Assembly (NCBI RefSeq): GCF_001894885.1
Contig: NZ_BCXB01000031.1
Span: 1-44,978, forward strand
From: Rhodococcus marinonascens NBRC 14363
GTDB taxonomy: Bacteria; Actinomycetota; Actinomycetes; Mycobacteriales; Mycobacteriaceae
Length of the DNA stretch: 44,978 bases
Reading direction: 5' to 3'
The position numbers were made by a program, and so were the translations under genes. A model generated the notes under the pieces. It was not told where the DNA came from. It did not search any database and saw nothing but the letters and a program-made list of their open reading frames with translations. Shown here piece after piece: positions 3,291-38,524 of this stretch; position 1 is the first letter of the stretch, and every line of letters begins with the position of its first letter.

Positions 3291-3386
3291 CCGTTCGCAG
3301 CCGCCGGGTGTGCACGCGCTCCACGCGATGTCGGTGGGCGCGCAGCGGGAACTCCTGCGAGTGCGCTACCCGGGAAGATCGGGTTT

Positions 3387-4498: not shown

Positions 4499-4533
4499 AT
4501 GTCAAGGCTAGAAACTGGATATCTAAATGTCAA
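4499..4533 (-). promoter_or_regulatory. Leaderless promoter of the SatD-like gene
   Basis: On the minus strand a perfect -35 TTGACA (4533-4528) is separated by 17 bases from TAGCCT (4510-4505), leaving six bases to the ATG at 4498, so transcription would start at or next to the start codon. TTGACAT occurs again immediately before the ATG, and an inverted TTGTCAAG lies at 4544-4551, giving candidate operator half-sites that overlap the promoter. Confidence 0.6.
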
Positions 4534-4557
4534 GACTCAATGCTTGACAATTCGGAT

Positions 4558-5232: not shown

Positions 5233-5281
5233 AGAGCATGAGGCTACCCCCAACGACCTGTGAGGGTTCTTCGAGCGAGCG

Positions 5282-6115
5282 TCAGATCAGACGGCGTCCG
5301 GTTACCGTCGCCTCGGTACAGATTTGTCCACCGCTGGTGCCGGTCACCCGGATCACGGACACCGCGCGGCCGGATTTGATCACCGCCGCGGTGAAGGTGA
5401 CGTCGGAATCCAGGCTGACGGGCCGGAAGTAGTTGATCCGCACCGACGCCGTGTCCATGTCCGGGCCGGCACCGCTCAGGGCAGCGTTCGCCGCAAGGCT
5501 CATCGCGCACGCCTGGACGCCGCCGTGCATATACCCGCGTTTGTTCGAGACCAGGGGATTGGGTGGAATCACGACCCGCACCTCCGGCCCGTTCTCGATC
5601 TGGCCACCGATCCACTCGAGCGGTGGGACTCCCAGTTCGGGAAAGTCGGGGAGCTGCGGTGCATTCGGTGAGGCAGCCCCGGAGTCATGACCGGGATCAT
5701 CCACGAAGTTGCCCCACAGCGTGCCTGTGCCGATCAGTGTGCCCGTCGAGTCGTACACGTGTGCGGTGGAGGTGCCGCCGTCGGCGGTGAGTGCGAGCAG
5801 CCTGCCCTCCGCCCACAGGGCGGGCCCCTGCCATCGCCGGGGAGTAAAGATGTCGATCGACAACTCGGCGGTGACGATTCCGGCGCGGGTGCCGCGCCTG
5901 TCCCACAACGTGAATCCCAGCAGGTCGTCGAGGAGTACGCCGAGCACACCGCTGTAGGAGGTGTCGGCGGTGTGTGCGGCAATCGCGCCGATGTCCATGC
6001 TCATACGATTGACTGGTTTGCCACAGTCGTTGACACCCCTGGTTGGTACGCCGAGCCCGAACAACCGCTGTGTGACACTGTGATCGGTGACGGCCGGTTC
6101 CCGCGCGATACTCAT
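5282..6115 (-). CDS. Acyl-CoA thioesterase-like protein, double hotdog fold
   Basis: A 277-residue protein long enough for two hotdog domains. The C-terminal half (about 175-275) contains NPLVSNKRGYMHGGVQACAM, with the HGG typical of the PaaI-like active site, then the strand patterns SVRINYFRPV and VIRVTGTSGGQICTEATVTG. The N-terminal half (about 45-150, SYSGVLGVLLDDLLGF, TAELSIDIFTPRRW) has the same layout in weaker form. These enzymes hydrolyse acyl-CoA thioesters. ATG 6115 is used; a shorter start in the MSMDIG segment (about residue 40) is possible. It is divergent from mutA over 130 bp, so a role linked to acyl-CoA turnover fits, but the substrate is unknown. Confidence 0.75.
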   Translation of the reverse strand: MSIAREPAVTDHSVTQRLFGLGVPTRGVNDCGKPVNRMSMDIGAIAAHTADTSYSGVLGVLLDDLLGFTLWDRRGTRAGIVTAELSIDIFTPRRWQGPALWAEGRLLALTADGGTSTAHVYDSTGTLIGTGTLWGNFVDDPGHDSGAASPNAPQLPDFPELGVPPLEWIGGQIENGPEVRVVIPPNPLVSNKRGYMHGGVQACAMSLAANAALSGAGPDMDTASVRINYFRPVSLDSDVTFTAAVIKSGRAVSVIRVTGTSGGQICTEATVTGRRLI

Positions 6116-6245
6116 GACCAGAGGTTATGCATCAAGTGGTGATCCTCACGATAAGAGGCACCGAAGTGCGGCTAGCATCACAGTCAAACAACATATTGAT
6201 CGATCGCTGATCAGGGGTCATCCACAGGGAGAGGGAGCCGACACC

Positions 6246-18217: not shown

Positions 18218-19306
18218 TCAATTCGCGCGCTGTCCCGGATCGGCACCGTTGACCCGGTGAGTGCCGTCGCGCACGGTGCCCACGTATTCCTCGACCAGAT
18301 CCTCGAGGGCGACGATGCCGACGATCCGCCCAGACGGGTCCGCCGCGGCCCCCAAGTGGGAACTCGTGCGCCGCAGACCCGCGAGAGCTTCCGCGAGCGG
18401 GGTGGTGGCCGCCATTCGCGGCAGTGGGCGGATGTCCGCACGCGGAATCACTGTGTCGGGTCCCGCATCCTCGTCCAGCACGTCGTCGAGCACATCCTTG
18501 AGGTGCAGGTAGCCGACCAGCGAACCATCCTCGGCACGCACCGGGTACCGGGAGTACCCGGTCTCGATGACGGCTTCCTCGATGGCGCCGAGCCGTGTTC
18601 CTCCGACCGAGAGCGGGATGGTCCGGACCTCGTCCAAGGGGATCATCACCTCGGCGACGATGCGGTCGGTCGATTCGAGGGCCTGGGTGAGCCGCCGGTG
18701 CTCCTCCGCGTCGATGAGTCCCTCGGAACGGGATTCGCCAATCATCTCGGACAGTTCCACCGTAGAGACGGTGACCTCGAGTTCGTCCTTCGGTTCGACT
18801 CGGAGCAACCTCAGTGTGAGGTTGGCGCAGAGGTTGTAGAACGCGATGAGCGGGCGGGCCAGCTTGAGGAATACCAGATGCATCGGCACCAGCAGCATGG
18901 CCGACCGTTCCGGGCCTGCGAGGGCGATGTTCTTGGGCACCATCTCACCGAGCAGGATGTGCAGCACCACGATCAGCGCCATCGCGATCGTGAAGGACAC
19001 CGCGTGTAGAAGGCTGTCGGACAGTTGGAGCGCGCCAAGAGGGACTTCCAGGAGATCCGCGATGGCCGGTTCGGCCACCTTGCCGAGCAGGATCGAGCAG
19101 ATCGTGATGCCCAACTGTGCGGCGGCGAGCATCAACGACAGATTCTCGCCCGCCACGATCACGGTACGGGCGCGCTTCTTGCCCTGCGCCTCGAGTGCCT
19201 CGAGGCGGTCGCGTCGGGCCGAAATCAACGCGAATTCGGCGCAGACGAAGAAGGCGTTGCCGGCGAGTAGCACAAAGGTGAAGAGCATCCCGAACAGATC
19301 AGCCAT
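18218..19306 (-). CDS. CNNM/CorC-type membrane protein with CBS pair (second of tandem)
   Basis: A 362-residue protein: an N-terminal CNNM domain with four hydrophobic segments ([45 protein letters not shown], and [11 protein letters not shown]), then two CBS motifs ([13 protein letters not shown]..., [11 protein letters not shown]...[16 protein letters not shown]). Proteins of this class transport or export Mg2+ and related cations. No CorC_HlyC domain follows the CBS pair, unlike its upstream neighbour. Start 19306 overlaps the stop of the upstream paralogue by 8 bases (ATGGCTGA). The pair matches M. tuberculosis Rv1841c/Rv1842c in order next to guaB1. Two overlapping paralogues suggest a heteromeric transporter. 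Confidence 0.88.
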
Positions 19307-20669
19307 TATCGCCCTCCTTCCGGTCGGCGTCGCCGGTTTCGACGGGAACCGGTGTGAGCAGCACCCGGTCGATGCGTCGGCCATCCATGTGGGTCACCGT
19401 GGCCGTCCACCTGCCACCGGGGTCGTGCGCGGCACCGGACGTAGGGAGTTCCACCACGTCGCCATCCCCGGGGATGCGTCCGAGATGGGTGAGTACCAGA
19501 CCGCCGAGGGTTTCGTAATCGCCCTCAGGCGCCGTGTACCCGGTGGTTTCGGAGACCTCGTCGACGCGGAGCAGGCCCGAGCAGGACCAGCCGTCGCCGA
19601 TCCGCTGGACGTCGATCTGTGGTTCGTCGTGTTCGTCGCGCACGTCGCCGACAATTTCCTCGATCAGATCCTCCATTGTGACCAGTCCGGCCGTGCCACC
19701 GTATTCGTCGACGACGAAGGCCACCTGCATGCCGTCGGACCGGATCCGCTCCATCAGGGCATCACCGTCCAGGCTGGCGGGAACCACGGGGACGTTCTGT
19801 GCGAGCGAAATGAGACGGGTGGTGCGGCGACGTCCGCCGGGTACCGCGAAGGCGTGCTTGATGTGCACGATGCCGACGGAGTCGTCGAGGTCGCCGTCGA
19901 CGACGGGGAACCGGGAGAACCCGGTGCGAGCGGCGGTGTCGATCAGATCGGCCACCGTGTCGGTGGTGGCCAGCGACTCGATCTTCACTCGCGGCGTCAT
20001 CAGTTCCTCCGCGGTGCGTTCACCGAATCGGAGGGACCGGTTGACGAGCAGCGCTGTTCCCTTGTCGATGGCGCCACGTTGTGCGGAAGTACGGACGAGC
20101 GCACCGAGTTCCTGCGGGGATCGCGCCGACCGCAGTTCCTCGGCCGGCTCGATGCCCAGACGCCTCACCAATCTATTCGCGGTTCCGTTGAGTCCGTTGA
20201 TAGCCCATTTGAAGATCAGCGAGAAACCGGCGTGTATTCCCGCCGTCGCTCGCGCCGTAGGAAGGGGGTGGGAGATGGCGAGGTTCTTCGGAACGAGTTC
20301 GCCGAAGACCATCGAGAACGAGGTTGCGAGAACCAGAGCGATCACCAATGATGTTGCTGCGGAAACAGATTCGCTGATACCGACAGCATCCAAAATTGGC
20401 CTGATGAACCGTGCCAGGACCGGTTCGGCCAAATAGCCGGTGACCAGCGTGGTGATCGTGATGCCGAGTTGCGCTCCCGACAGCTGAAAGGACAGCGTGC
20501 GGTGGGCATGCTGAACCTGGCGGGAGCGGAGGTCACCGTCGCGGGCGTGCGCCTCGACGGCGCTGCGCTCGAGGGCGGTGAGCGAGAATTCGGCCGCGAC
20601 GAACAGTGCGGTGCCTGCCGTCAGGGCGAGAAAGCCGAGTAGCGCGAGAAGGCTGAGCGCGATGTCCAT
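19299..20669 (-). CDS. CNNM/CBS/CorC_HlyC-type cation transport protein (first of tandem)
   Basis: A 456-residue protein: CNNM domain with [38 protein letters not shown] and [11 protein letters not shown], a CBS pair ([46 protein letters not shown]), then a C-terminal CorC_HlyC domain (about 350-440, [22 protein letters not shown]). This is the complete architecture of Mg2+ efflux-type proteins such as CorC/CorB. ATG 20669 follows a structured leader (20682-20738) and a terminator of the upstream guaB1 gene, so this gene is probably the first of its operon with the following paralogue and the glycosylase-like gene. Ribosome binding sequence before the ATG is weak. Confidence 0.9.
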
Positions 20670-24781: not shown

Positions 24782-26233
24782 TCAGGCCTGCACTTCGCTG
24801 CGGTCACCACTCCACAGTGTGTGGAACTTGCCCTCGACGTCGACCCGCTCGTACGTGTGGGCGCCGAAGAAGTCCCGCTGCCCCTGGGTCAGGGCCGCGG
24901 GCAGTCGCTCTGCGCGCAGGGCGTCGTAGTACGACAGCGAGGACGCGAATGCCGGCACCGGGATACCGAGCAGGGTGGCGGTGGACACCACACGGCGCCA
25001 GCTATCGATGGCCGTCTCGATCGCCTCCCGGAAGTACGGCGCCAGGATGAGGCTCGGCAGTTTCGGGTTCTCGTCGTACGCGTCCTTGATGCGGTTGAGG
25101 AAGCGTGCCCGGATGATGCAGCCGCCACGCCAGATGGTCGCGAGGTCGGCCGGGTGCAGATCCCAGTCGTACTCGGCACTGCCCGCCGCGATCTGGTCGA
25201 ATCCCTGTGCGTAGGCCACAACCTTCGACGCGTACAGCGCCTGGCGGATGTCCTCGGTGAACTGCGCGGCGTCCGCCGGCTTGTCGGCGAGCCGACCGGA
25301 TGCGAGGCCGACCGCGGCCTTGCGCTGTTCACGTGAACCGGACAGGGCGCGGGCGAACACGGCCTCGGCGATGCCGGTGACCGGTACCCCGAGGTCGAGC
25401 GCGGACTTGACGGTCCAGCGGCCCGTGCCCTTCTGCTCGGCGGCGTCAACGATCACGTCGACCAGCGCCTTGCCGGTCTTCGCGTCCTTCTGCTTCAGTA
25501 CCTGTGCGGTGATCTCGACGAGGTAGCTCTCCAGATCCCCGGAATTCCACTCGGTGAACACCTCGGCGATCTTGTCGGCGTCGTAGCCGAGGGCGTCACG
25601 GAACAGGTTGTACGCCTCGCCGATCAGCTGCATGTCGGCGTACTCGATGCCGTTGTGGACCATCTTCACGAAGTGACCGGAACCGTCGGGGCCGATGTGC
25701 GTGCAGCACGGGGTGCCGTCGACCTGCGCGGCAATCGATTCGAGCAGCGGGCCGAGCGCCTCGTAGGACTCCTTGGGTCCACCCGGCATGATCGACGGTC
25801 CGTTCAGCGCGCCTTCCTCACCACCGGAAATACCGGCCCCGACGAAGTGCAGACCCCGCTCGCGGAGGGCGGCCTCGCGGCGGATCGTATCGGTGAACAG
25901 GGCATTGCCGCCGTCGATGATGATGTCGCCGGACTCCATCGCGGCGGCGAGCTCCTCGATGACGGCGTCGGTGGGATCGCCGGCCTTGACCATGATCAGC
26001 ACGCGGCGCGGCTTCTGTAGGGCGCCCACGAACTCCTCGATGGTCTCCGTACGCACGAAGTCGCCGTCCTTGCCGTAATCGGCAAGGAGGGCATCGGTCT
26101 TCGCGACGCTGCGGTTGTGCAGAGCGACCGTGTGACCGTGCCGGGCGAGATTTCGGGCAATGTTCGAGCCCATGACGGCCAGTCCGGTGACGCCGATCTG
26201 GGCGCGGGCGCCCTCGGTGTTGTCGATAGTCAT
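24782..26233 (-). CDS. gnd: 6-phosphogluconate dehydrogenase (decarboxylating)
   Basis: A 483-residue enzyme: NADP-binding GVTGLAVMGSNIARNLA, DGGNALFTDT, the substrate-site signature GISGGEEGALNGPSIMPGG, GSGHFVKMVHNGIEYADMQ with the catalytic lysine, and the C-terminal all-helical half ending HTLWSGDRSEVQA. It oxidises and decarboxylates 6-phosphogluconate to ribulose-5-phosphate, giving NADPH. This is the long, dimeric form. ATG 26233 follows GAAGGAA at a normal distance. The first 277 bp of the coding region (to 25957) lie inside a 699-bp segment that is repeated at 28244-28942, so a truncated second gnd start exists. In M. tuberculosis gnd1 is also next to guaB1 and the M56/BlaI pair. Confidence 0.96.
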   Translation of the reverse strand: MTIDNTEGARAQIGVTGLAVMGSNIARNLARHGHTVALHNRSVAKTDALLADYGKDGDFVRTETIEEFVGALQKPRRVLIMVKAGDPTDAVIEELAAAMESGDIIIDGGNALFTDTIRREAALRERGLHFVGAGISGGEEGALNGPSIMPGGPKESYEALGPLLESIAAQVDGTPCCTHIGPDGSGHFVKMVHNGIEYADMQLIGEAYNLFRDALGYDADKIAEVFTEWNSGDLESYLVEITAQVLKQKDAKTGKALVDVIVDAAEQKGTGRWTVKSALDLGVPVTGIAEAVFARALSGSREQRKAAVGLASGRLADKPADAAQFTEDIRQALYASKVVAYAQGFDQIAAGSAEYDWDLHPADLATIWRGGCIIRARFLNRIKDAYDENPKLPSLILAPYFREAIETAIDSWRRVVSTATLLGIPVPAFASSLSYYDALRAERLPAALTQGQRDFFGAHTYERVDVEGKFHTLWSGDRSEVQA

Positions 26234-26518
26234 AGATACAGCATTCCTTCTCACTCGGCGGTGGCGAAATCGGCGGCTGGATAGACCTCCAGCAAGGTTA
26301 TCGCCGAGGTCTTCGGGGTGCCGCGCCGATGCACGCCCTGCTGTCGGGGGGTCGGCGTCAGCGCAGATCATAGAGCTATTACCGGAGATACTGCCGCGCT
26401 CGATCTTCACTCCGATAACGAACACCCCGGGTGCCGCCGCAACGATCGGTGCCGAGATTGTGTATCCGATGCGGAATCATCAGGTCCGACGGCAATCCAT
26501 GGAGACCGGCATTGACCA

Positions 26519-26547
26519 TTGACAATATTTCCGGTCAAAGGTACACA
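26519..26547 (+). promoter_or_regulatory. Promoter of propeller gene 1
   Basis: TTGACA (26519-26524), a 17-base spacer and TACACA (26542-26547) form a good SigA-type promoter facing the propeller gene, predicting a start near 26554 and a 275-base leader. TTGACC (26512-26517) and GGTCAA (26534-26539) form an inverted pair spanning the -35, a possible operator. The same promoter is present in copy 2. Confidence 0.6.
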
Positions 26548-26594
26548 CTAGCGAATGAAGCGTGGGAGGCCCCTAACAGCTCCTGAGGGACAGA

Positions 26595-26630
26595 GGAACC
26601 ACTGTGATTGATGGAACCACTGTGATCGAT
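26595..26630 (+). repeat. Two 18-bp tandem units in the propeller 1 leader
   Basis: ggaaccactgtgattgat (26595-26612) is followed directly by ggaaccactgtgatcgat (26613-26630), differing at one base. The pair lies about 40-75 bases after the predicted transcription start and is also present in the second copy at 28882-28917. It could be a binding site or a slippage product. Confidence 0.7.
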
Positions 26631-26829
26631 CAGACGGATGAGATGTTGTGGACGTGAATCAGGTACAGCCGGGCAGTTGGGCAAGAACGGTCGCGTCGCA
26701 ATGGCTCACTTGCTGTTGGTGTCGAGGACGCTCGGCACCTATCCCGCGTCAGGAATCGAGCGGGAGTCCGCTGCCTCAACTTCCACGAGAGCCGGGATCA
26801 CCTCGCTGTTCCATCGAGTAGGGAGAAAT

Positions 26830-28182
26830 ATGAATTGGCACAGCGGTTTCCGCGGTTTCCTCGAGGTCTGGCGTTGTACCCGCCGCCTTTTGTTCGTGTT
26901 GGCTGCCGTCGTCGCGATGGCGGTGGGAACCGTCGGAGTGGGAGCGGTGACTGCGGCGGCAGACACCGTCATCGGCACCGTCCTGGTCGGGGACGCCCCG
27001 GAGGGGGTGGCGGTGACCCCGGATGGGTCCCGCGCCTACGTCACCGACTCGAAGAGCAATAGGGTGTCGGTGATCGACACTGCGAGCAACATTGTGATCG
27101 CGACCGTCCCTGTCGGGACCACCCCCCAAGGGGTGGCTGTGACCCCCGACGGATCCCGCGTCTACGTCGCCAACGCTTTCAGCGGTCTTCTCGGTGAGGT
27201 GTCGGTCATCGACACCGCCGACAACACGGTGGTCACGACCGTCCCTGCCGGGATCATCCCCGAAGGGGTGGCGGTGACCCCCGACGGAAACTTCGTCTAC
27301 GTCACCAACAATTTCAGCAATGAAGTGTATGTGATCGGCACCGCCGACAACATCGTGGCCACAACCTTCCCGGTCGGGGGCCGCCCCCAAGGGGTGGTGT
27401 TGACCCCGGACGGGTCCCGCGCCTACGTCACCAACTCGAAGGACAATTCGGTGTCGGTCATCGACACTGCCACCAATGCTGTGGTCGAAACGGTGCAGGT
27501 CGGGGCAAGCCCGCACGACGTGGCGGTGACCCCGAACGGGAAGTTCGCCTACGTCACCAACTCGAAGGGCAATTCGGTGTCGGTGATCGACACTGCCACC
27601 AATGCTGTGGTCGAAACGGTGCAGGTCGAGGCAAGCCCGTATGCCGTGGCGGCGACCCCGGACGGGTCCCGCGCCTACGTCACCAACTCGAAGGACAATT
27701 CGGTGTCGGTGATCGACACTGCCACCAATGCTGTGGTCGAAACGGTGCAGGTCGGGGCAAGCCCGCACGACGTGGCGGTGACCCCGGACGGGTCCCGCGC
27801 CTACGTCACCAACTATGACGACAACACAGTGTCAGTGATCGAAATAACCAAGGAGCCCGATGTCGAGACCACGACGAGACTGTCCCCGCCCACGTCTGCT
27901 GTGAAGGGCGTTGCAGTGGACCTCAATGCGATGGTCTCCTCGACCCCGTCCAGTGGCACAGTACAGTTCTTCGATGGCGTGATTCTCATCGGGGACCCGG
28001 TGCCGGTGACCAATGGTAGGGCGACACTGTCACATACCTTCACCGAGGCGGGCGATCACCCAATTACCGCGGTCTACAGCGGAACTGACGGCTTTCTCGG
28101 ATCGACCAGTCAAGTCACTACCGTCGTCGTCACAGACGATGGCGGCGGCACCGGATCAGCCGGCGGCGTCTTCGGATCCTGA
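26830..28182 (+). CDS. Secreted seven-bladed YVTN beta-propeller protein with Ig-like domain (copy 1)
   Basis: A 450-residue exported protein. The signal peptide (RRLLFVLAAVVAMAV...VTAAA) should be cleaved before DTVIG. Seven repeats of about 42 residues follow, each with the pattern VAVTPDGSRAYVTNSxxNxVSVIDTATN, enough for one closed propeller. An Ig-like domain (about 350-435, AVKGVAVDLNAMVSSTPSSGTVQFFDG...ITAVYSGTDGFLGST) and a glycine-rich tail ending GGVFGS complete it. Blades 4-7 repeat with an exact 126-bp period and near-identical DNA, a sign of recent blade amplification. ATG 26830 follows GGGAG. Likely located at the cell envelope; ligand unknown. It is paired with a diverged paralogue at 29181-30557 in a tandem duplication. 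Confidence 0.9.
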   Translation: MNWHSGFRGFLEVWRCTRRLLFVLAAVVAMAVGTVGVGAVTAAADTVIGTVLVGDAPEGVAVTPDGSRAYVTDSKSNRVSVIDTASNIVIATVPVGTTPQGVAVTPDGSRVYVANAFSGLLGEVSVIDTADNTVVTTVPAGIIPEGVAVTPDGNFVYVTNNFSNEVYVIGTADNIVATTFPVGGRPQGVVLTPDGSRAYVTNSKDNSVSVIDTATNAVVETVQVGASPHDVAVTPNGKFAYVTNSKGNSVSVIDTATNAVVETVQVEASPYAVAATPDGSRAYVTNSKDNSVSVIDTATNAVVETVQVGASPHDVAVTPDGSRAYVTNYDDNTVSVIEITKEPDVETTTRLSPPTSAVKGVAVDLNAMVSSTPSSGTVQFFDGVILIGDPVPVTNGRATLSHTFTEAGDHPITAVYSGTDGFLGSTSQVTTVVVTDDGGGTGSAGGVFGS

Positions 28183-28520
28183 TTTCTGCAACTCGCCCAG
28201 TACGCGGTTTCGGATTCCGGTGTATCGATCGCTGCGAACTCAGCGATGACGGCGTCGGTGGGATCGCCGGCCTTGACCATGATCAGCACGCGGCGCGGCT
28301 TCTGTAGGGCGCCCACGAACTCCTCGATGGTCTCCGTACGCACGAAGTCGCCGTCCTTGCCGTAATCGGCAAGGAGGGCATCGGTCTTCGCGACGCTGCG
28401 GTTGTGCAGAGCGACCGTGTGACCGTGCCGGGCGAGATTTCGGGCAATGTTCGAGCCCATGACGGCCAGTCCGGTGACGCCGATCTGGGCGCGGGCGCCC
28501 TCGGTGTTGTCGATAGTCAT
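28110..28520 (-). pseudogene. Truncated duplicate of the gnd 5' end
   Basis: From ATG 28520 the frame repeats the first 92 residues of gnd exactly (MTIDNTEGARAQIGVTGLAV onward, with the NADP-binding motif) up to DPTDAVI, then leaves the repeat at 28244 and continues for 44 unrelated residues to a stop at 28110, reading antisense through the 3' end of propeller gene 1. The catalytic and dimer parts of the enzyme are missing, so it cannot act as a dehydrogenase. It has the same ribosome binding site as gnd and could still be transcribed, opposing propeller gene 1. Confidence 0.9.
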
Positions 28521-28942
28521 AGATACAGCATTCCTTCTCACTCGGCGGTGGCGAAATCGGCGGCTGGATAGACCTCCAGCAAGGTTATCGCCGAGGTCTT
28601 CGGGGTGCCGCGCCGATGCACGCCCTGCTGTCGGGGGGTCGGCGTCAGCGCAGATCATAGAGCTATTACCGGAGATACTGCCGCGCTCGATCTCCACTCC
28701 GATAACGAACACCCCGGGTGCCGCCGCAACGATCGGTGCCGAGATTGTGTATCCGATGCGGAATCATCAGGTCCGACGGCAATCCATGGAGACCGGCATT
28801 GACCATTGACAATATTTCCGGTCAAAGGTACACACTAGCGAATGAAGCGTGGGAGGCCCCTAACAGCTCCTGAGGGACAGAGGAACCACTGTGATTGATG
28901 GAACCACTGTGATCGATCAGACGGATGAGATGTTGTGGACGT
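28244..28942. repeat. 699-bp direct repeat, copy 2
   Basis: This is the second copy of 25957-26655, shifted by 2,287 bp, with one base difference seen (c at 28693). Its left edge adjoins the 3' flank of propeller gene 1 and its right edge leads into the diverged leader of propeller gene 2. Beyond 28942 the two leaders still share words (cttgctgttggtg, and an acttccacgaga-like block) but are no longer identical. Confidence 0.95.
28806..28834 (+). promoter_or_regulatory. Promoter of propeller gene 2
   Basis: TTGACA (28806-28811), 17 bases, TACACA (28829-28834): an exact copy of the propeller 1 promoter, 2,287 bp downstream. The predicted leader to the GTG at 29181 is about 340 bases, longer than in copy 1. 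Confidence 0.6.
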
Positions 28943-29180
28943 CGATGGTGCGCAGCCGCAGCTGGGTAGTGCGGCAGGCATATTCGCGTTGTGGTCCGAA
29001 CGACCACTTCTAGATCACTTTCAGCCGACGTCTGTTTCGTGGCGGTCCCCTTGCTGTTGGTGCGTCTTTGGGCTGGCACACGACACTTCCCGTGCGGCAC
29101 GACTCGAGGTGAGGGACCGCCGACCCAGCTTCCACGAGATCCGGGACAACCTGGTTGTTCCTTTGCGGCAGGAGACAAAT

Positions 29181-30557
29181 GTGAATCGGCAGAGTAGTTT
29201 TCGATGCAATTTCGGGACCCGGGGGAGCGCCGGGCGTCTCTTGTTCGGGTTGACAGCCACCGTCGCGATGGTGGTTGGTATGGCCGGAATGGGGGCCGCG
29301 ACCGCGGCAGCAGATGCCGTCATCGCCACGGTCCCTGTCGGGAACACCCCGATCGGATTGTCGGTTGCCCCGGACGGGTCCCACGCCTACGTCACCAATG
29401 CTTATGGCAACAGTGTGTCGGTGATCGACACCGCCACCAACGCTGTGGTCGCGACCATCCCCGTCGAGGATGTCCCCCAAGGGGTGGCGGTGACCCCGGA
29501 CGGGTCACACGCCTACGTCGTCAACACTTTCGGCGGACACGTATCGGTGATCGACACCGCCACTAACACCGTGGCCGCGACCGTCCCGGTCGGGAGTCTT
29601 CCGTATGGGGTGGCGGTGACCCCGGACGGGTCCCACGTCTACGTCACCAACACCTTTAGCAGTAACGTGTCGGTGATCGACACCGCCTCCAACGCTGTGG
29701 TCGCGACCGTATCGGTCGGGTTCTTGGCATATGGGGTGGTGGTCGTCCCGGACGGGTCCCACGCCTACGTCACCAACTCCTACAACGATACGGTGTCGGT
29801 GATCGACACCGCCTCCAACGCTGTGGTCGCGACCGTCCCGGTCGGGGTCGGTCCGTATGGGGTGGCGGTGACCCCGGACGGGTCCCACGTCTACGTCGTC
29901 AACACTTTTGATCAATTTGTGTCGGTGATCGACACCGCCTCCAACGCTGTGGTCGCGACCGTCCCAGTCGGGGTCGGCCCGATGGGTGTGGCCGTCACCC
30001 CGGATGGGTCCCACGCCCTGGTCACGAACAAGACGGACAATTCGGTGTCGGTGATCGACACTGCCGCCAACGCTGTGGTCGCGACCGTCCCGGTCGGGAA
30101 TGGCCCGTACGAGGTGGCGGTCACCCCGGATGGGTCCCACGCCTACGTCACCAACTCTGATGACAATTCGGTGTCGGTGATCGACATCGCCGCGGCCGTC
30201 CCGGACGCGGAGACCACGACTGTGCTGACCCTGCCTGCGTCCGCGGTGAAAGGCGTTGCGGTGGATCTGACCGCGACGGTCTCCCCGACCCCCGACGGTG
30301 GCACCGTGCAGTTCTTGGATGACACGACCCCGATCGAGGACCCGGTGCTGGTAGCCGACGGTAAGGCAACGCTGTCACATGCATTCGCCGAGGCGGGCGA
30401 TCACCGCATCACGGCGGTCTACAGCGGAACGCAGGGCCATCTCGGCTCGACCGCTGAGGTGGGCACGATCACGGTCACCGACGATGGCGGCGGCGTCCCA
30501 GGGCCTGGGCCTGGGCCTGGTAGTAGCGGATCGGCCGACAGCATCTTCGGATCCTGA
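29181..30557 (+). CDS. Secreted seven-bladed YVTN beta-propeller protein with Ig-like domain (copy 2)
   Basis: A 458-residue paralogue of the preceding propeller. The signal peptide (GRLLFGLTATVAMVV...ATAAA) ends before DAVIA; seven 42-residue repeats follow (VAVTPDGSHAYVTNxxxxxVSVIDTASN), then an Ig-like domain (SAVKGVAVDLTATVSPTPDG...ITAVYSGTQGHLGST) and a linker with PGPGPGPGSSGS ending in DSIFGS. GTG 29181 follows GGAG at 29171-29174. Compared with copy 1, SR in each blade is SH and the loop residues differ throughout, so the two are clearly diverged although their upstream segments are almost identical. Cell-envelope location and binding role are inferred from the architecture. Confidence 0.9.
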   Translation: MNRQSSFRCNFGTRGSAGRLLFGLTATVAMVVGMAGMGAATAAADAVIATVPVGNTPIGLSVAPDGSHAYVTNAYGNSVSVIDTATNAVVATIPVEDVPQGVAVTPDGSHAYVVNTFGGHVSVIDTATNTVAATVPVGSLPYGVAVTPDGSHVYVTNTFSSNVSVIDTASNAVVATVSVGFLAYGVVVVPDGSHAYVTNSYNDTVSVIDTASNAVVATVPVGVGPYGVAVTPDGSHVYVVNTFDQFVSVIDTASNAVVATVPVGVGPMGVAVTPDGSHALVTNKTDNSVSVIDTAANAVVATVPVGNGPYEVAVTPDGSHAYVTNSDDNSVSVIDIAAAVPDAETTTVLTLPASAVKGVAVDLTATVSPTPDGGTVQFLDDTTPIEDPVLVADGKATLSHAFAEAGDHRITAVYSGTQGHLGSTAEVGTITVTDDGGGVPGPGPGPGSSGSADSIFGS

Positions 30558-30672
30558 GATAGCGGCTCCGTCGTGCCCGAGCAGGGCCTCGCCACCCTGG
30601 GCACATGCCTGCCCGACCACTTCCGGTAGGGGCGGGGCAGGTGCGGTGATCGTTGGAGAAAGACAGATATGA

Positions 30673-30706
30673 GGGCCCGGCCCTCGCATGTGCGATGGCC
30701 GGGCCC
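30673..30706. terminator. Long hairpin between propeller 2 and helicase
   Basis: GGGCCCGGCC (30673-30682) and GGCCGGGCCC (30697-30706) pair perfectly, and the loop holds a further CGCA-TG-TGCG pairing. It lies 46 bp past the helicase stop on the minus strand, followed there by the T-rich tcatatctgtctttctcc, and 115 bp past the propeller 2 stop. It probably terminates the two convergent genes. Confidence 0.75.
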
Positions 30707-30751
30707 CCACTTCAGGCGTTTCGAAGGTCGGTTGTGCCGACTACCTGGAGG

Positions 30752-32560
30752 TCAGCTGTGACGCTCACGCTGGGGGCCGTCGAACCCGTCGTACGAACGA
30801 CGGTCCGTGCGGCTGCGGAATCCACCTCCGGTCGACGCGGGACGCCGATCCGATGTGGAGGTGGGGCGATGGCCGTCGCGGCGGAAGCCGCCACCACGGC
30901 TGTCGCCCGAGTCACGGCGCGGAGCGCTGCGGTCGAAGCTGCGCTCTCCGGTGCCTCGATGACTGTCACCGCGGTCACCGTAGTCGCGGCGCGGCGCACT
31001 ATCGCCCGCCGGGCGCACGTCACGGTCCCCACGGTAGCTGCCGCCACGGTTGTCACCGCTGCGCTGAGGACGATCGCCCCGGTAGCCGCCGGACCGGTTG
31101 TCGGACTGGTCGCGGCGGGGTCCGCGGCCCTCGGAGCCGCGGTTCTCGAAGCTGCGGTTGCCCGAGGGGCGGTCGCCGTAGCTGCGGGTGCCCCGGTAGC
31201 CTCCACCGCCGTCCCGGCCACCGTATCCGCCTTCGCGGCGGGGTCCGCGGTTGCCGAACTTGCGATCGCCGCCACGGTCGGGGAAGGTTTCGCGCACAGG
31301 TTCTCCGCTGGGCGCCTTGGCACCGGTGATGCTGGCCAGCTTCTCCGAACCGGGAGTGACGGGCACGGCGGCGGCGTCGACGCCTGCCATCCCGGTCAGG
31401 CGCTTGAACGTGCGCTTCTGGTTGGGGAGCACGATCGCGACGACCGTGCCCTTCTCGCCGGCCCGCGCGGTGCGGCCTGCGCGGTGGAGGTAGTCCTTGT
31501 GGTCGGCGGGCGGATCGACGTGCACGACCAGGTCGATCCCGTCGACGTGGATTCCGCGCGCGGCGACGTCGGTCGCGACGAGCACGGGGGTGCGGCCGTT
31601 CTTGAAGCGTTCGAGGACCCGGGTGCGCTGGTTCTGTGCCTTGCCGCCGTGCAGGGACTCGGCGGCGATGCCCACCGCGCGCAGGCGGTCGGTGATCCCC
31701 TCGCACCCGAGTTTGGTCCGGGCGAACATGATGGTACGGCCGTCACGGGCACCGATTTCGGCCAGTACATTGTCCTTCTGCCCACGGTCGACGAGCAGCA
31801 CGTAATGCTCCATGGTGTCGACGCTGGCGCGACCGTCCTCGGTGGAGTGCTTAACGTGGTCGGGCAGGAATTGGCGGACCAGCGACTGCACCTCACGGTC
31901 CAGGGTGGCTGAGAACAGCAGTCGCTGTCCGTCGGCCGGCGTCTCGCCAAGGATGGATCGCACCTCTGGCAGGAAGCCCATGTCAGCCATCTGATCGGCC
32001 TCGTCGAGGGCGGTGATCTCGATGGAATCGAGGACGCAGGTGGCCTGACGCAGGTGATCGCTGAGACGCCCCGGGGTGGCGACGAGGATGTCGACGCCGC
32101 GACGCAGCTGGTCCACCTGCTTGGTGAACGGGGTGCCGCCGACGGCGGGCCGGACGGTCAGTCCGAGCGCGCCGGCGTAGGACGAGAGGGAGTCGACCAC
32201 CTGGAACGCAAGTTCACGGGTGGGGACGAGCACCAGCGCCCGGGGACGCTTGGGTGCGGGCCGGTCTTCGTGGCGGGCGAGGCGGGCGAGCATCGGCAGG
32301 CCGAAGGCCAGGGTCTTTCCAGATCCGGTCTGTGCGCGGCCGAGGACGTTGGTGCCGGCGAGCGCATCTGGAACGGACTGCGCCTGAATCGGCGACGGGG
32401 TGGTGATGGAGTTGCGGGCGAGGGCCTCCACCAGTGGTGCGGGCAGGCCGATCTCGGCAAACGTCACGGTGGCCGTGTCGGCTTCAGTGGCGCTCTGATC
32501 TGGGGTTTCGACGTCAGCCTGCTCTTGTGGGGCAGACGAAATCTGGACAGCGTTAGTCAC
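30752..32560 (-). CDS. DEAD-box RNA helicase with long RG-rich tail
   Basis: A 602-residue helicase. The core (about 30-390) has the Q motif, QTGSGKT, PTRELAFQ, TPGRLSDHL, DEADQMADMGF, SAT, ATDVAARGIHV and HRAGRTARAG. The remaining 210 residues are a disordered tail of repeated RG, GGYRG and GDR units, an RNA-binding tail seen in cold-adapted and ribosome-assembly helicases of the RhlE/CsdA type. GTG 32560 follows GGAGAGG. The leader is long: a -10-like TACACT at 32736-32731 leaves about 165 bases, which fits cold-inducible regulation but is not proof. Its core is related to the helicase at 23281-24672. Confidence 0.93.
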   Translation of the reverse strand: MTNAVQISSAPQEQADVETPDQSATEADTATVTFAEIGLPAPLVEALARNSITTPSPIQAQSVPDALAGTNVLGRAQTGSGKTLAFGLPMLARLARHEDRPAPKRPRALVLVPTRELAFQVVDSLSSYAGALGLTVRPAVGGTPFTKQVDQLRRGVDILVATPGRLSDHLRQATCVLDSIEITALDEADQMADMGFLPEVRSILGETPADGQRLLFSATLDREVQSLVRQFLPDHVKHSTEDGRASVDTMEHYVLLVDRGQKDNVLAEIGARDGRTIMFARTKLGCEGITDRLRAVGIAAESLHGGKAQNQRTRVLERFKNGRTPVLVATDVAARGIHVDGIDLVVHVDPPADHKDYLHRAGRTARAGEKGTVVAIVLPNQKRTFKRLTGMAGVDAAAVPVTPGSEKLASITGAKAPSGEPVRETFPDRGGDRKFGNRGPRREGGYGGRDGGGGYRGTRSYGDRPSGNRSFENRGSEGRGPRRDQSDNRSGGYRGDRPQRSGDNRGGSYRGDRDVRPAGDSAPRRDYGDRGDSHRGTGERSFDRSAPRRDSGDSRGGGFRRDGHRPTSTSDRRPASTGGGFRSRTDRRSYDGFDGPQRERHS

Positions 32561-34258: not shown

Positions 34259-35122
34259 TCATAGTTTCGATACGCTTGACGAGTTTCGAGCAGCAGCGGC
34301 CGGGCCACCCACCGCGCCGTACACGTGGCGCGTCCCGATCGGTACCACCAGCGGACGATCGGACACCGGGTCGGCGATCACCGCGGCCTCGAGGCCGAAC
34401 ACATCGAGGAGCAGTTCGGCGGAGATGATGTCCTTCGGTGCACCCGCCGCGACGACCGTGCCGTCCCGCATCACGATCAGCCGGTCGCTGTATCGGATCG
34501 CGAGGTTGAGGTCGTGGAGCACCATGACCACGGTGCGGCCCATCTCCTCGTGCATCCGGTCCACGAGGTCCAGAACTTCGATCGAGTGCGCCAGGTCCAG
34601 GTAGGTCGTGGGCTCGTCGAGCAGGAGGATGTCGGTTCCCTGCGCGAGCGCCATCGAAATCCAGGCGCGCTGGCGCTGACCGCCGGACAACTGGTCGACC
34701 GGGCGATCCGCGAGGTCGGACACACCGGTCAACGCGAGCGCCTCGGCGACCTCGCCCTCGTCGTCGGACGACCACTGCCGGATCCACGACTGATGTGGAT
34801 GCCGGCCGCGCGCGACCAGGTCGGCAACCGTCAGGCCCTCGGGTGCGAGCGGCGCCTGGGGGAGCACGCCCAGGGTGCGAGCAACGTCCTTGGTGCGCAT
34901 CGACCCGATGGCCTTGCCGTCGAGCAGCACCGAACCGTTCCGCGGCTTCAGAAGCCTGCCCAGCGCGCGCAGCAGGGTCGACTTACCGCACCCATTGGGG
35001 CCGATCACGGTGGTGATCACCCCTGTCTCGACCTGTAGATCGAGGTTGTCGACGACAATGCGGTCGCCGTATCCGAGGCTCAGGCCTTCGGCGATCAGTC
35101 GAGCGTCAGGCTGCGCGGTCAT
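34259..35122 (-). CDS. ABC transporter ATPase for iron-siderophore uptake (FepC/FecE-like)
   Basis: A 287-residue ATPase: Walker A GPNGCGKST (41-49), Q-loop VLPQAPLAPEGLTV, signature LSGGQRQR (145-152), Walker B ILLLDEPTTYLDLAHSIEVLDL and the H-loop VMVLHDLNLA. The TTYLDLAHS variant is typical of iron-chelate transporters. ATG 35122 overlaps the upstream permease stop (ATGA), so it is the third gene of the operon. It energises import of a ferric siderophore through the two permeases. No periplasmic-type binding protein gene is in the operon, so that subunit must be encoded elsewhere. Confidence 0.93.
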   Translation of the reverse strand: MTAQPDARLIAEGLSLGYGDRIVVDNLDLQVETGVITTVIGPNGCGKSTLLRALGRLLKPRNGSVLLDGKAIGSMRTKDVARTLGVLPQAPLAPEGLTVADLVARGRHPHQSWIRQWSSDDEGEVAEALALTGVSDLADRPVDQLSGGQRQRAWISMALAQGTDILLLDEPTTYLDLAHSIEVLDLVDRMHEEMGRTVVMVLHDLNLAIRYSDRLIVMRDGTVVAAGAPKDIISAELLLDVFGLEAAVIADPVSDRPLVVPIGTRHVYGAVGGPAAAARNSSSVSKL

Positions 35123-36225
35123 GCTGAGACCTTCCGATTGTTGCGAACCAGCAGGTACATCAGGAATGGGCCACCGAGGGCCGAGGTGACGATGCCGACG
35201 GGAAGTTCGACCGGCAGGATCGTGCGGGCCACCACGTCGCTGCCCACCACGAGCACGGCACCCGTCAGCGCCGACGCGATCAGTGGGGGTCCGGCGGCGC
35301 GCACCAACCTCAGAGCGACCTGGGGTGCGGCGAGCGCGACGAAACCGATCGGACCCGCCGCCGCGGTCGCGATACCGGCCAGGGTCACGGACATCAGCAG
35401 AAGACGTGCCTGCGACCACTGCAGTCGGACACCCAGCGACACGGCGTTGTCGTCGCCGAGTCTGAGCGCCCCCATTGTGAATGAGCAGCCGACGGCGTAC
35501 CCACCGATCAGTACGACGGCTACCGTCACCGGCCACACCTGGCTCCACGACGCACCATTGAGGGAGCCGTTGAGCCAGACCTGGGCACGGGAAGCGTCGT
35601 TGATGTCGGCCGAGATGAGCAACCACCCGGTGACCGCGATCAGCATGGCGTTGATCCCGATGCCGATCAGGATCAACCGGTAGCCCTCGACACCGCCACG
35701 CCACGCGAACAGGTAGATGATGGTGGCGGTGAGTAGTGCACCGCACAGCGCGGCCAGGGGTATACCCAAGGTTGCCAGAAGGCCGACGAAGGATCCACCG
35801 CCGCCGAGGACGATCAGTGCGACCGCGGCGGCGCTCGCACCCGAGGTGATGCCGAGGATGTCGGGGCTCGCCAAGGCGTTCCGAGCGATCGACTGTGTGA
35901 TGGCACCGGCCAGGCCCAGGGCCATGCCGATGAACGCGCCGGTCAGCGCCCTCGGCAGGCGAAGGTCGATGACGATGAAGTTCTGGGCTCTTGTACCGCC
36001 ACCAAACAGCACTCTCGTGACCTCGGGGATGGACATCGGGTAGTCGCCGCGGCCGATGTGCAGGCAGAGCAGGAGAAAAAGCGTCACCAGCAGCGCGACG
36101 TTCACGGCGATACCGAGAGGCCGGAGAACGAGGGAGATCGGCCCGAGTCGGAATGCCGGGCGGGCGGGGACCCGGGACGGCAACGTTGCGCCGGCGTCGC
36201 TGCGCAACTCGTCTTTGACACTCAC
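35119..36225 (-). CDS. FecCD-family iron-siderophore permease
   Basis: A 368-residue permease with about ten hydrophobic segments and FecCD landmarks: RLPRALTGAFIGMALGLAGAITQ, ARNALASPDILGITSGASAAAV, GALRLGDDNAVSLGV and AAGPIGFVALAAPQVALRLV, ending LPVELPVGIVTSALGGPFLMYLLVR. It forms the channel with the upstream permease. GTG 36225 overlaps the upstream stop (GTGA). The first 30 residues are polar and cytoplasmic. Confidence 0.93.
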   Translation of the reverse strand: MSVKDELRSDAGATLPSRVPARPAFRLGPISLVLRPLGIAVNVALLVTLFLLLCLHIGRGDYPMSIPEVTRVLFGGGTRAQNFIVIDLRLPRALTGAFIGMALGLAGAITQSIARNALASPDILGITSGASAAAVALIVLGGGGSFVGLLATLGIPLAALCGALLTATIIYLFAWRGGVEGYRLILIGIGINAMLIAVTGWLLISADINDASRAQVWLNGSLNGASWSQVWPVTVAVVLIGGYAVGCSFTMGALRLGDDNAVSLGVRLQWSQARLLLMSVTLAGIATAAAGPIGFVALAAPQVALRLVRAAGPPLIASALTGAVLVVGSDVVARTILPVELPVGIVTSALGGPFLMYLLVRNNRKVSA

Positions 36226-37709
36226 AGCCTTGCCAACTTCCTGCGCCGAACCAACGCGATGAAGAACGGTGCGCCGAAGACTGCCAGCACGATGCCCACC
36301 TGCAGCTCGCCCGGTCGGACGACGACGCGGCCGAGGACGTCTGCGGTGACGAGCATGGTGCCGCCGAGGAGTCCTGCGTAGGGGACGAGCCAGCGGTAGT
36401 CGGAACCGGTGATCGCCCGCGCCACGTGCGGGACCACCAGGCCGATGAAGGCGATCGGCCCGCAGGCCGCGGTGGCCGCACCGATCAGCAGCGTGATGGC
36501 GAGGATGCCAAGGGCGCGACTGGCCGCAATGTTGGTACCGAGCGACCGGGCCACGTCCTCACCGAGGCTGAGGACGTTCAGTCCGGGTGTGCTGACCAGA
36601 GCGAGGATCAACCCGAAGATCAGGAACGGCAGCACTTGCCACAGCACGTCGAACCCACGTCCGGCCACCGAACCGACCACCCAGAAACGGAAGGAGTCCA
36701 GGCTGGCCTGGTCGATGATGATGACCGCGTTCGTCATCGCCTGCAGGAAGAACGCGACGGCGGCGCCGGCCAGTGCCAGACTCAGCGGACTTGCCCCACC
36801 GTTGCCGATCGACGACAGCCCGAACACGATCACACTCGCGGCGAACGTCCCGGCGAATGCGAACCACAGGTACTCACTGGGCGCGGTGAAGCCGAACAAA
36901 TACATCGACAGCACAACGAGGAATGCGGCACCGGCACTGAGACCGAGAAGCCCCGCATCGGCAAGTGGATTGCGGGTGTGCCCCTGGATCAGGGCACCGG
37001 CCACACCGAGCGCGATGCCCACGATGAGTCCCAGCGCGGTGCGCGGAGCGCGCAGTGTGTGCACGATGATGTCGGCCTGGGATCCGTCCGCGTCGAACAG
37101 AGCGTGGAAGATCTCCGCGAAGGACAACGGGCGCGCCCCGATCGCGACGCTCGCGAGTAGAACCAGGACGAGCAAAATCACCAGGACACCCAGACCGACA
37201 AGTCTGCGACGACGGATCGCCGCGACCGATACGTCCTTCGCGAGGACGGTGAATCCTTCGTCCCTCGCCGTGCTCTCGCGGACAACCTCGGTTCCGGAAC
37301 GCTGCAATACCCGCGCCAGCGCGCGCTTCGGTCCGATCGCATCGTGTGTGTGGGTGTCGCGGGTGACAAGGCCGACCCAGCCCTTGCCGGAACTCTGCCC
37401 GGTGTTGCCTTCACGGAAACCCTGGTTCCACACGGCGAGGGCCACCGCAATCGCGGCGGCGGTACAGCCGAAGACGATGCGGTCGGCCTGCCCGCCGCCG
37501 TTGGCGTCACTGAGCGCATCGAGGGTGTACCAGCCGAGGACAAGAGGGATCGCCACGATCCCGAGGTCGAGTAGCGCCGCGAGGGCGCGCAAATACAGCG
37601 AGGCGGGACCGCGCGGAACGTCACTTTTTCCGTACGGTTCGTCGGTCGACAGGTGCGGGATGTCACTGCCGAACTGTCTCGTCGTCACTGGTGGAAAAGC
37701 TCCTGACAT
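36222..37709 (-). CDS. RDD domain-FecCD permease fusion, iron-siderophore uptake
   Basis: A 495-residue protein, about 150 longer than a usual FecCD permease. Residues 36-120 form an RDD-like membrane module: ASLYLRALAALLDLGIVAIPL (the R...D pattern), a second helix, then WNQGFREGNTGQSSGKGWVGL, the typical RDD loop. A charged linker follows, and from about 165 the FecCD permease (TLRAPRTALGLIVGIALGVAGAL, TRNPLADAGLLGLSAGAAF, ATAACGPIAFIGLVVPHVARAI, GELQVGIVLAVFGAPFFI). ATG 37709 is preceded by a weak GAGC-type site. First gene of the operon; an IdeR-type box (37747-37765) lies 38 bp upstream, so repression by iron is expected. The role of the RDD part is unknown. Confidence 0.9.
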   Translation of the reverse strand: MSGAFPPVTTRQFGSDIPHLSTDEPYGKSDVPRGPASLYLRALAALLDLGIVAIPLVLGWYTLDALSDANGGGQADRIVFGCTAAAIAVALAVWNQGFREGNTGQSSGKGWVGLVTRDTHTHDAIGPKRALARVLQRSGTEVVRESTARDEGFTVLAKDVSVAAIRRRRLVGLGVLVILLVLVLLASVAIGARPLSFAEIFHALFDADGSQADIIVHTLRAPRTALGLIVGIALGVAGALIQGHTRNPLADAGLLGLSAGAAFLVVLSMYLFGFTAPSEYLWFAFAGTFAASVIVFGLSSIGNGGASPLSLALAGAAVAFFLQAMTNAVIIIDQASLDSFRFWVVGSVAGRGFDVLWQVLPFLIFGLILALVSTPGLNVLSLGEDVARSLGTNIAASRALGILAITLLIGAATAACGPIAFIGLVVPHVARAITGSDYRWLVPYAGLLGGTMLVTADVLGRVVVRPGELQVGIVLAVFGAPFFIALVRRRKLARL

Positions 37710-37746
37710 GTCTGCGTGTAAAGCGAACTGGCGCCGATTCACCCAC

Positions 37747-37765
37747 TTAGGTTACGGAACCCTAT
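37747..37765. promoter_or_regulatory. IdeR/DtxR-type iron box 1
   Basis: TTAGGTTACGGAACCCTAT matches the 19-bp IdeR consensus (TTAGGTTAGGCTAACCTAA) at 14 positions, including the full left half TTAGGTTA. It lies 38 bp before the siderophore permease start, the place expected for iron-dependent repression. Confidence 0.7.
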
Positions 37766-37783
37766 CCCTCGCCCCGCACCTAG

Positions 37784-37813
37784 TTGCATCATTAGGGCAG
37801 CCTTGCCTATAAT
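37784..37813 (+). promoter_or_regulatory. Promoter of the thioesterase gene overlapped by IdeR-type box 2
   Basis: TTGCAT (37784-37789), 18 bases, and a perfect TATAAT (37808-37813) face the divergent thioesterase. TTAGGGCAGCCTTGCCTAT (37792-37810), matching the IdeR consensus at 13 of 19 positions, covers the spacer and -10. Binding there should block this promoter in iron-rich cells. Confidence 0.55.
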
Positions 37814-37912
37814 CGCTGTGGGCGAGTCGAGTAGTCGGGCGACACGCCGAAGAACCGAACTACCGGACCGCACCGGAGTCCTGAGGGCTGCAGAGACTCC
37901 CGGTCCTTCCCA

Positions 37913-37948
37913 CGGCGGGCCGCACGCTCTACGGTGTGCGGCCCGCCG
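37913..37948 (+). repeat. Perfect 13-bp hairpin in the thioesterase leader
   Basis: cggcgggccgcac (37913-37925) and gtgcggcccgccg (37936-37948) pair exactly around ten bases, about 90 bases after the predicted transcription start and 100 before the coding region. A weaker stem (accggagtc with gactcccggt, 37871-37903) precedes it. It may be an attenuator or simply a stable leader fold. Confidence 0.6.
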
Positions 37949-38047
37949 ATCGGTTTGCCGCACCCGCCGTAGCCGCCGCATCGAGCGTCGTGTAGGCAAG
38001 TAATCGGGTGCGCTGCCAGAGCGCACTGCGATCCGATGGGGAGTGTG

Positions 38048-38524
38048 ATGGTGGGTTCCGGCGAACGGCAGGCCACGAATGGCGACGGTCAGATCGATGA
38101 CGGTCAGATCGATACTGCCGAGGTATCCGAACAACTGAACAGGGGATTCGATGCCCTCATCGGACTCGAGTACACCGAATTGGGTCCCGACCGCGTGCAG
38201 GCGCAGTGGACCGTCACTCCCGACCATCGGCAACCGGCCGGAATCCAACACGGCGGCGTGTACTGTTCCGTCATCGAATCAGTCGCCAGCACGGCAGGGA
38301 TGATGTGGCTCGGGGGTCGCGGACACGTCGTCGGGGTCAACAACAATACCGACTTCCTGCGTGCCGTACGCGAGGGAAGAATGACCGCCGCGGCCACCCC
38401 TATCCACCGCGGACGCACCCAGCAACTGTGGGAGGTCCGGATCACCGACGAACAGGACCGCCTGGTCTCCAAGGGGCAGGTCCGGCTTGCGAACATCACC
38501 GACACCGGCAGCCTCGGAAACTGA
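38048..38524 (+). CDS. PaaI-like hotdog thioesterase
   Basis: A 158-residue hotdog protein: LNRGFDALIGLEYTELGPDRV, then QPAGIQHGGVYCSVIESVAS with the active-site HGG and following glutamate, GVNNNTDFLRAV, and the strand LWEVRITDEQDRLVSKGQVRLANI. It should hydrolyse a small acyl-CoA or aryl-CoA. I chose ATG 38048, after GGGGAG, over ATG 38036, which has no ribosome site. The N-terminus contains an in-frame perfect 15-bp tandem duplication (38084-38098, 38099-38113) giving DGQIDDGQID. The position between blaI and ndh matches M. tuberculosis Rv1847. The upstream IdeR box suggests iron control shared with the siderophore permease operon. Confidence 0.88.
   Translation: MVGSGERQATNGDGQIDDGQIDTAEVSEQLNRGFDALIGLEYTELGPDRVQAQWTVTPDHRQPAGIQHGGVYCSVIESVASTAGMMWLGGRGHVVGVNNNTDFLRAVREGRMTAAATPIHRGRTQQLWEVRITDEQDRLVSKGQVRLANITDTGSLGN
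38084..38113 (+). repeat. 15-bp tandem duplication in the thioesterase gene
   Basis: gacggtcagatcgat is repeated exactly and in frame, adding five residues (DGQID) to the variable N-terminus. Probably replication slippage. Confidence 0.85.

Follow-up and report, generated by a model that had tools for sequence, protein, structure and literature searches.

Introduction

Among the described systems closest to the locus treated here are the products of homology-facilitated illegitimate recombination (HFIR), which in Escherichia coli showed 3-10 bp of microhomology at the illegitimate join; a polymerase chain reaction (PCR) product diagnostic of duplication of the homologous segment was obtained in 56 of 60 clones, the duplication measured 109-950 bp in the 14 that were sequenced, and these duplications were ascribed to a single crossing-over of a circularised, partly deleted plasmid (PMC3240628). 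In the type VI secretion system (T6SS) effector-immunity arrays of Vibrio cholerae a new module enters at a conserved upstream anchor and older genes are pushed downstream (PMC5361080), and in merodiploids of Streptococcus pneumoniae made by transformation, interchromatid alternative pairing and unequal crossing-over give rise to tandem duplications (PMC3784515); for each of these papers our statements refer to the portion of the text available. Here we analyse a locus of Rhodococcus marinonascens NBRC 14363 at which two genes for predicted secreted YVTN propeller proteins (propellers 1 and 2) stand in tandem between gnd and a DEAD-box helicase gene, each behind one copy of a repeat, R (Table 1). 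The stretch analysed (the window, 44,978 nucleotides) makes up the entire contig C31; the draft genome to which it belongs (G000) totals 4.92 Mb in 156 contigs. It was compared principally with the nearest relative examined (G007), a complete genome of 4.44 Mb.

The repeat was searched in 41 genomes, with a match in 33, and the propeller in 28 genomes of the genus, the window's own included; the genome sets hold one genome per species. The gnd locus was inspected in detail in seven genomes of the same genus (G007, G018, G006, G020, G012, G002 and G003).

Results

The repeat and the propeller genes differ in age

The two copies of R measure 699 bp, lie in the same orientation with their starts 2,287 bp apart and are identical at 698 of 699 positions, which is far beyond chance; the sole mismatch (26407 T / 28694 C) lies outside gnd. 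A search of the window's own genome with R returned only these two copies among the matches listed. The second copy supplies a truncated gnd start and the same promoter region in front of a second propeller gene, as a preliminary description of this DNA had recognised. That description read the whole as a tandem 2,287-bp duplication, and here only the part that concerns the repeat holds: gapped alignment of the two propellers gives an identity of 75.2% for DNA and 64.4% for protein, with a nonsynonymous divergence (dN) of 0.245 and a synonymous divergence (dS) of 0.474. At the 2,287-bp register, identity between the two units ends directly after position 26655, and the recent copy accounts for 699 of the 2,287 bp (about 30%), the remainder being a diverged homologue. 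Direct repeats and a novel join of unit end to unit start (28243/28244) are present, as in a simple tandem duplication, but similarity is not equal across the unit (99.9% in R, 75% in the propellers). One difference in 699 positions set against a propeller dS of 0.474 excludes one duplication of the entire unit, and since the repeat is near-identical and the propellers are diverged, repeat and propeller genes differ in age. A near-identical repeat beside paired genes thus need not imply that the genes themselves were duplicated.

Table 1. Positions of the features of the gnd-helicase locus within the window.
Feature	Position	Strand	Remarks
gnd, intact 6-phosphogluconate dehydrogenase, 483 amino acids	24782..26233	-	Pfam 6PGD 4.7e-127, NAD_binding_2
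Repeat R copy 1	25957..26655		gnd codons 1-92, intergenic region, promoter region, start of propeller 5' untranslated region
Candidate promoter TTGACA-17 nt-TACACA	26519..26547	+	Read by eye; second copy at +2287
Propeller 1, 450 amino acids	26830..28182	+	G007-type, probable import
Spacer 3' of propeller 1, 61 bp	28183..28243		Final 10 bases equal the G007 propeller-helicase boundary
Repeat R copy 2	28244..28942		Starts inside gnd (about codon 92); has gnd start codon, intergenic and promoter regions
Truncated gnd'	28244..28520	-	Start codon and 92 codons
Propeller 2, 458 amino acids, GTG start	29181..30557	+	Probable resident ortholog
Hairpin, 10-bp stem	30673..30706		Helicase/gnd intergenic region, 3' of propeller 2
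DEAD-box helicase gene, right flank	30752..32560	-	Pfam DEAD 1.6e-45

Propeller 1 is less diverged from the nearest relative than its flanks

Between G000 and G007 the dS of propeller 1 is 0.143 (0.106-0.190 over 100 bootstrap replicates), whereas seven flanking genes give higher values: gnd 0.380 (lower bound 0.302), the right and left helicase genes 0.479 and 0.637 respectively, a guaB-family gene 0.489, an M56 peptidase gene 0.527 and two others 0.401 and 0.454; the intact gnd products are 96.9% identical in amino acids. For the left helicase gene this value replaces one from an apparently paralogous match of 58.6% identity. Four candidates were kept out of these seven flanking genes: the open reading frames (ORFs) 34259-36481 (dS 0.137, dN 0.133) and 18846-20351 on the + strand (dS 0.186), in both of which differences peak at codon position 1, ORF 37739-38251 (dS 0.328, 54% identity), and the 92-codon gnd piece in R. 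Third-position differences are 0.116 for propeller 1 and 0.23-0.36 for the seven genes, and a mechanically filtered list of 18 non-propeller ORFs of the window, several of them opposite-strand shadows, spans dS 0.186-0.617. Propeller 2, compared with the G007 propeller gene, gives dS 0.528-0.536, within the range of the flanks. With propeller 1 at 0.143, the flanks at 0.38-0.64 and propeller 2 at 0.53, the simplest reading would make propeller 2 the vertically inherited resident ortholog and propeller 1 a later arrival from the G007 side.

In a quick tree of 64 of 68 propeller ORFs from the two genomes (four with fewer than five blades were omitted), G000 propeller 1 groups with the G007 propeller (support 100) and propeller 2 lies outside (99). 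This topology fits an import of propeller 1 and would equally fit an old duplication; it is the contrast in dS that argues against the latter.

The site in related genomes and the join after propeller 1

In six of the seven genomes inspected (G018, G006, G020, G012, G002 and G003) gnd adjoins the DEAD helicase gene without a propeller. The G007 site holds exactly one propeller, which shares 90.5% of its DNA positions with propeller 1, with 11 bases between its stop codon and that of the helicase gene. G007, the sole relative in which an insertion was found, carries a gene of the propeller-1 type and not the deletion product that the preliminary description would predict. The hairpin of Table 1 is present in all four empty sites whose sequence was compared (G018, G006, G020 and G012) and is kept 3' of propeller 2, whereas it is absent 3' of propeller 1 and absent in G007; the right side of propeller 1 is therefore G007-type and that of propeller 2 ancestral. 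Away from this site, G004, G011 and G021 each have a propeller-family match on the 3' side of gnd, at a distance of about 11 kb and in the opposite orientation.

The spacer 3' of propeller 1 ends in GCGAACTCAG, directly after which the second copy of R starts. The same 10 bases occur at the G007 propeller-helicase boundary, where they include the helicase stop codon, and they are the longest word common to the spacer and the 52 bases 3' of the G007 propeller; of 5000 shuffled spacers, nine shared a word as long with G007. The unit with propeller 1 seems, from these comparisons, to end in a relic of the source's helicase end fused to recipient gnd codons. The gnd' frame stays open to 28110, giving a 136-amino-acid ORF that runs antisense into propeller 1.

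Origin of the locus

The apparent helicase relic at the join, taken with an exchange at the right-hand end of R, points to one homologous and one illegitimate join, and we consider it rather probable that such a pair of joins duplicated gnd codons 1-92 together with the promoter region. On this view a single gene for a secreted propeller would have been gained at the gnd-DEAD helicase boundary in an ancestor shared by G000 and G007; along the line to G000 it would have become propeller 2, with the ancestral hairpin retained on its 3' side, and on the G007 side it would have become the propeller-1 type, with loss of the hairpin. Recently, propeller-1-type DNA would have entered the G000 lineage, joined on one side by homologous exchange in the promoter or 5' untranslated region, near 26655, and on the other by an illegitimate join of the incoming helicase-gene end to the resident (or a sister) gnd at about codon 92, via a short similar sequence. 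The event may have been HFIR or an unequal crossing-over between two haplotypes, and would have set the foreign propeller 5' of its resident counterpart, with the gnd 5' part and promoter region copied between them and gnd whole. As would be expected of either, the inserted gene differs in history from its flanks as judged by dS, gene-specific constraint being another possible cause of that difference. One-anchor insertion or interchromatid pairing may also have acted. The sequences themselves show the repeat, the anatomy of the locus, the difference in age and, in relatives, empty and single-gene sites; we infer the direction of transfer, the single-event mechanism, expression and reversibility.

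Several points weigh against this history. No donor, no uninserted recipient and no other strain of the same species was found in the genus set, with its one genome per species, or among the protein matches listed. The 10-base boundary match is short, and gnd agrees with the join at 8 of 11 corresponding bases (by eye), an imperfect similarity at a place where the E. coli study describes 3-10 bp of microhomology. According to the portion of PMC3240628 available, HFIR is a rare event whose classical product carries a deletion rather than a duplication; the HFIR route would also presuppose competence of the organism. The gnd piece inside R has a dS of 0.234 (0.128-0.347), between the propeller and flank classes. 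Low dS is not confined to propellers either: in six locus pairs, 3 of 47 non-propeller ORFs have dS below 0.2, and although in two of these the differences are distributed over codon positions as in a wrong reading frame, the third (L068 4804-6054 in G000, compared with L099; 397 codons, dS 0.189), near a propeller locus, looks genuine. The low dS of propeller 1 could reflect gene-specific constraint, although the propeller family pair L080/L091, at 0.421, is not low; in the three-gene group L083/L100 two clean pairs have dS 0.113 and 0.136 beside a flanking gene at 0.469. Finally, a history in two steps, with the resident unit duplicated and one gene then replaced, fits almost as well.

In that two-step alternative, which we hold to be unlikely, a recent tandem duplication joined the helicase end to gnd and produced two identical units, in one of which homologous exchange later put a G007-type gene in place of the propeller. 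The near-identical repeat and the low dS of propeller 1 follow from it directly; it requires two events, however, and the first copy should have retained the hairpin, whereas the propeller 1 spacer lacks one and ends like the G007 boundary. Quite improbable in our view is an old tandem pair, duplicated before the split of G000 and G007, of which G007 lost propeller 2 whilst gene conversion kept the repeat identical in G000. The branching of propeller 2 outside both propeller-1 genes agrees with it, and a short similarity between the G000 junction and the helicase end (by eye) could have mediated the deletion in G007, but such a pair predicts a propeller 1 dS of about 0.4-0.6, not 0.143, and conversion would have had to end exactly at 26655, sparing the propeller genes.

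The preliminary description had seen in the locus a recent simple duplication kept as an expansion and contraction cassette for an envelope protein. The direct repeats do have the correct geometry, and local amplification occurs in the family, whose local groups reach seven ORFs in one 20-kb G007 stretch. With propellers just 64% identical in protein, no three-copy locus, no other locus with more copies and no 2.3-kb step among the loci fetched, and no repeat across a propeller in any of 21 G007 loci fetched, we regard this as very improbable. An assembly or mixed-strain artefact, in which the common repeat linked reads from a propeller-1 strain to reads from a propeller-2 strain, is scarcely credible, even in a 156-contig draft in which several other contigs start or stop inside propeller genes, because the junction of the propeller 1 end and gnd' is a breakpoint expected in neither single-gene haplotype and the contamination value of the genome is 0.11; we infer that this junction must exist in the reads and that a repeat node having two entrances and two exits allows a single linear path, which gives the assembled order.

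The propeller proteins and their upstream region

Both proteins have a signal-peptide-like N-terminus, seven YVTN blades and a Big_3_5 immunoglobulin (Ig)-like domain, and propeller 1 has an FGS tail. Model TIGR02276 matches seven stretches in each (E-values 1.3e-86 and 8.2e-95 for propellers 1 and 2), in keeping with a seven-bladed YVTN propeller. An AlphaFold2 model of propeller 1 has a mean pLDDT (predicted local distance difference test score) of 89, and its best Foldseek match is an archaeal surface-layer YVTN/PKD protein (PDB 1l0q, 38% identity). To judge from these domains the propellers would be secreted, probably envelope, proteins, and the earlier proposal of an envelope protein, given the signal-like helix and the combination of propeller and Big_3_5, remains plausible. 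Two more specific assignments fail: against the YncE equivalog NF052280 propellers 1 and 2 score 111.2 and 80.4 bits, under the curated cut-off of 400, and against the MmpL3/TtfA stabilizer equivalog NF048007 they score 118.3 and 86.5 bits, below the cut-off of 600. Protein searches with both returned only distant YVTN proteins, at no more than 61% and 65% identity respectively (best 120 of about 7,950 matches each), and a plasmid collection held no close copy, all 448 matching records being below 60% identity. Within propeller 1, three successive 126-bp blades (27446-27830) are 88-93% identical in DNA; blade motif positions differ between G000 and G007, which with the similar 126-bp blades suggests shuffling of blades inside the gene.

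The candidate promoter in R aligns, by eye, with TTGACT-17-TAAGTA in G007, and a strict consensus promoter scan of 25957-30800 found no promoter-like site. As both propellers lie behind the same upstream region, expression of both is plausible. An Rfam scan of the window gave 0 matches.

A large propeller family

Propeller 1 DNA matches 55 places in G000 and propeller 2 DNA 54 in G007, fragments and Ig-domain-only matches counted. In 40 fetched stretches together with the window and the G007 gnd locus we counted 68 propeller ORFs with at least three blades (29 in G000, 39 in G007), and in the tree, propellers of G000 that pair cleanly and one-to-one with a G007 propeller are few. With low dS in two pairs of L083/L100 but not in L080/L091, propellers may have been exchanged between lineages recurrently, in a small sample in which gene-specific constraint is also possible. 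Repeats of at least 80 bp and at least 85% identity flanking or entering a propeller were found at L071 (102 bp, 96%), L072 (1,320 bp, 94%) and L084 (421 bp, 86%), each of them a G000 locus; a repeat as near-identical as R occurs at none of the other propeller loci fetched.

A copying of propeller 2 from another paralog was considered and, as far as the draft shows, rejected: the matches listed for G000 and G007 stay at or below 76% where they extend beyond 1 kb, and reach 84% where they are shorter. A promoter common to the whole family was likewise rejected, as R has no further match listed in G000 and an upstream profile built from 25 members (of the 56 among the 68 ORFs that had a start and sufficient upstream sequence) matches significantly only 29 nt around the propeller 2 ribosome-binding site. 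The 25-member consensus shows a conserved region, about 140-330 nt long, that in many genes of the family stops at the ribosome-binding site, for example L069 8173; the gnd-linked pair is without it except for the 29 nt at propeller 2.

Among propeller ORFs with a complete 3' end (L068-L107, L041 and the window), 60 of 66 end in a C-terminal GS, FS, WPS, GSS or GN, frequently preceded by a Gly/Ser-rich stretch (SLTGSGSGAGSxFS). Such a tail occurs in 12 of 532 other coding-like ORFs of the same loci; 11 of these 12 lie in two G007 stretches (L094 and L105), one is a propeller fragment, and two L094/L105 ORFs tested are Ig-repeat (Big_3_5) proteins. The common tail is possibly a sorting or anchoring tail.

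Two further observations concern other loci. The propellers at 8265-9342 of L058 (Rhodococcus spongiicola) and 5929-7003 of L107 (G007) are 85% identical, and the other L058 genes align at about 76% with a different G007 locus (L089), a hint of propeller mobility. Over 3.9 kb, an R. spongiicola contig aligns at 76% with one G000 locus and one G007 locus, in keeping with a placement in Rhodococcus. In G007, L104 carries a 4.5-kb self-overlapping direct repeat (1-4471 and 1839-6312, 88% identity) beside a propeller gene.

Discussion

If the proposed origin is right, the locus preserves an intermediate of exchange between lineages, with the incoming and resident genes side by side and both joins readable, and offers a concrete test case for the turnover of large secreted-protein families in mycolic-acid bacteria. 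The arrangement may be reversible: RecA-type recombination between the copies of R could excise propeller 1 and one repeat, 2,287 bp in all, placing propeller 2 behind the intact gnd. The preliminary description had foreseen this outcome with gnd unharmed, and the geometry agrees, the copies having the same orientation and their mismatch lying outside gnd; the addition of copies by unequal exchange would be possible in principle.

More tentatively, and with considerable doubt on our part, the dozens of secreted propellers could form a surface repertoire that is reshuffled between species, swapped behind fixed promoters and sometimes stacked, in a manner resembling antigenic variation. Were this true, the gnd locus would be a snapshot of such an exchange with the old and new gene both present, and a system of this kind, possibly directed against phages or predators, would exist in a bacterium not known for one. 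In the open-licence PubMed Central literature, no paper on such a Rhodococcus propeller family was found by title or start of abstract, and nothing was found on recombination of YVTN surface antigens.

At the level of the proteins, the archaeal surface-layer protein 1l0q resembles those of the window in joining a YVTN propeller to an extra domain, which is PKD there and Big_3_5 here, and differs in its source and in an identity of only 38%. The propeller of the MmpL3 complex (MSMEG_5308 / Rv1057; PMC6593404) is likewise seven-bladed and from a mycolic-acid bacterium, and NF048007 gives a weak match, far under its cut-off; it differs in that the portion of that paper available mentions neither an Ig domain nor an FGS-like tail.

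At the level of the locus, and within what the available text of each paper describes, the T6SS arrays (PMC5361080) share a constant upstream anchor with the newer gene at the anchor and the older one downstream, whereas at gnd the anchor and promoter region are duplicated, both genes are whole and there is no toxin/immunity logic. Pneumococcal merodiploids (PMC3784515) share a tandem duplication through unequal crossing-over, but there the recipient duplicates about 100-900 kb of its own chromosome. The HFIR products (PMC3240628) would share one homologous end, another end at a short, here imperfect, similarity and a duplicated homologous segment beside the insert; there the duplications were ascribed to a circularised, partly deleted plasmid, whilst for the Rhodococcus locus no donor molecule was found. 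The proposed mechanism is of a known kind, and the gnd locus would be a new case of it.

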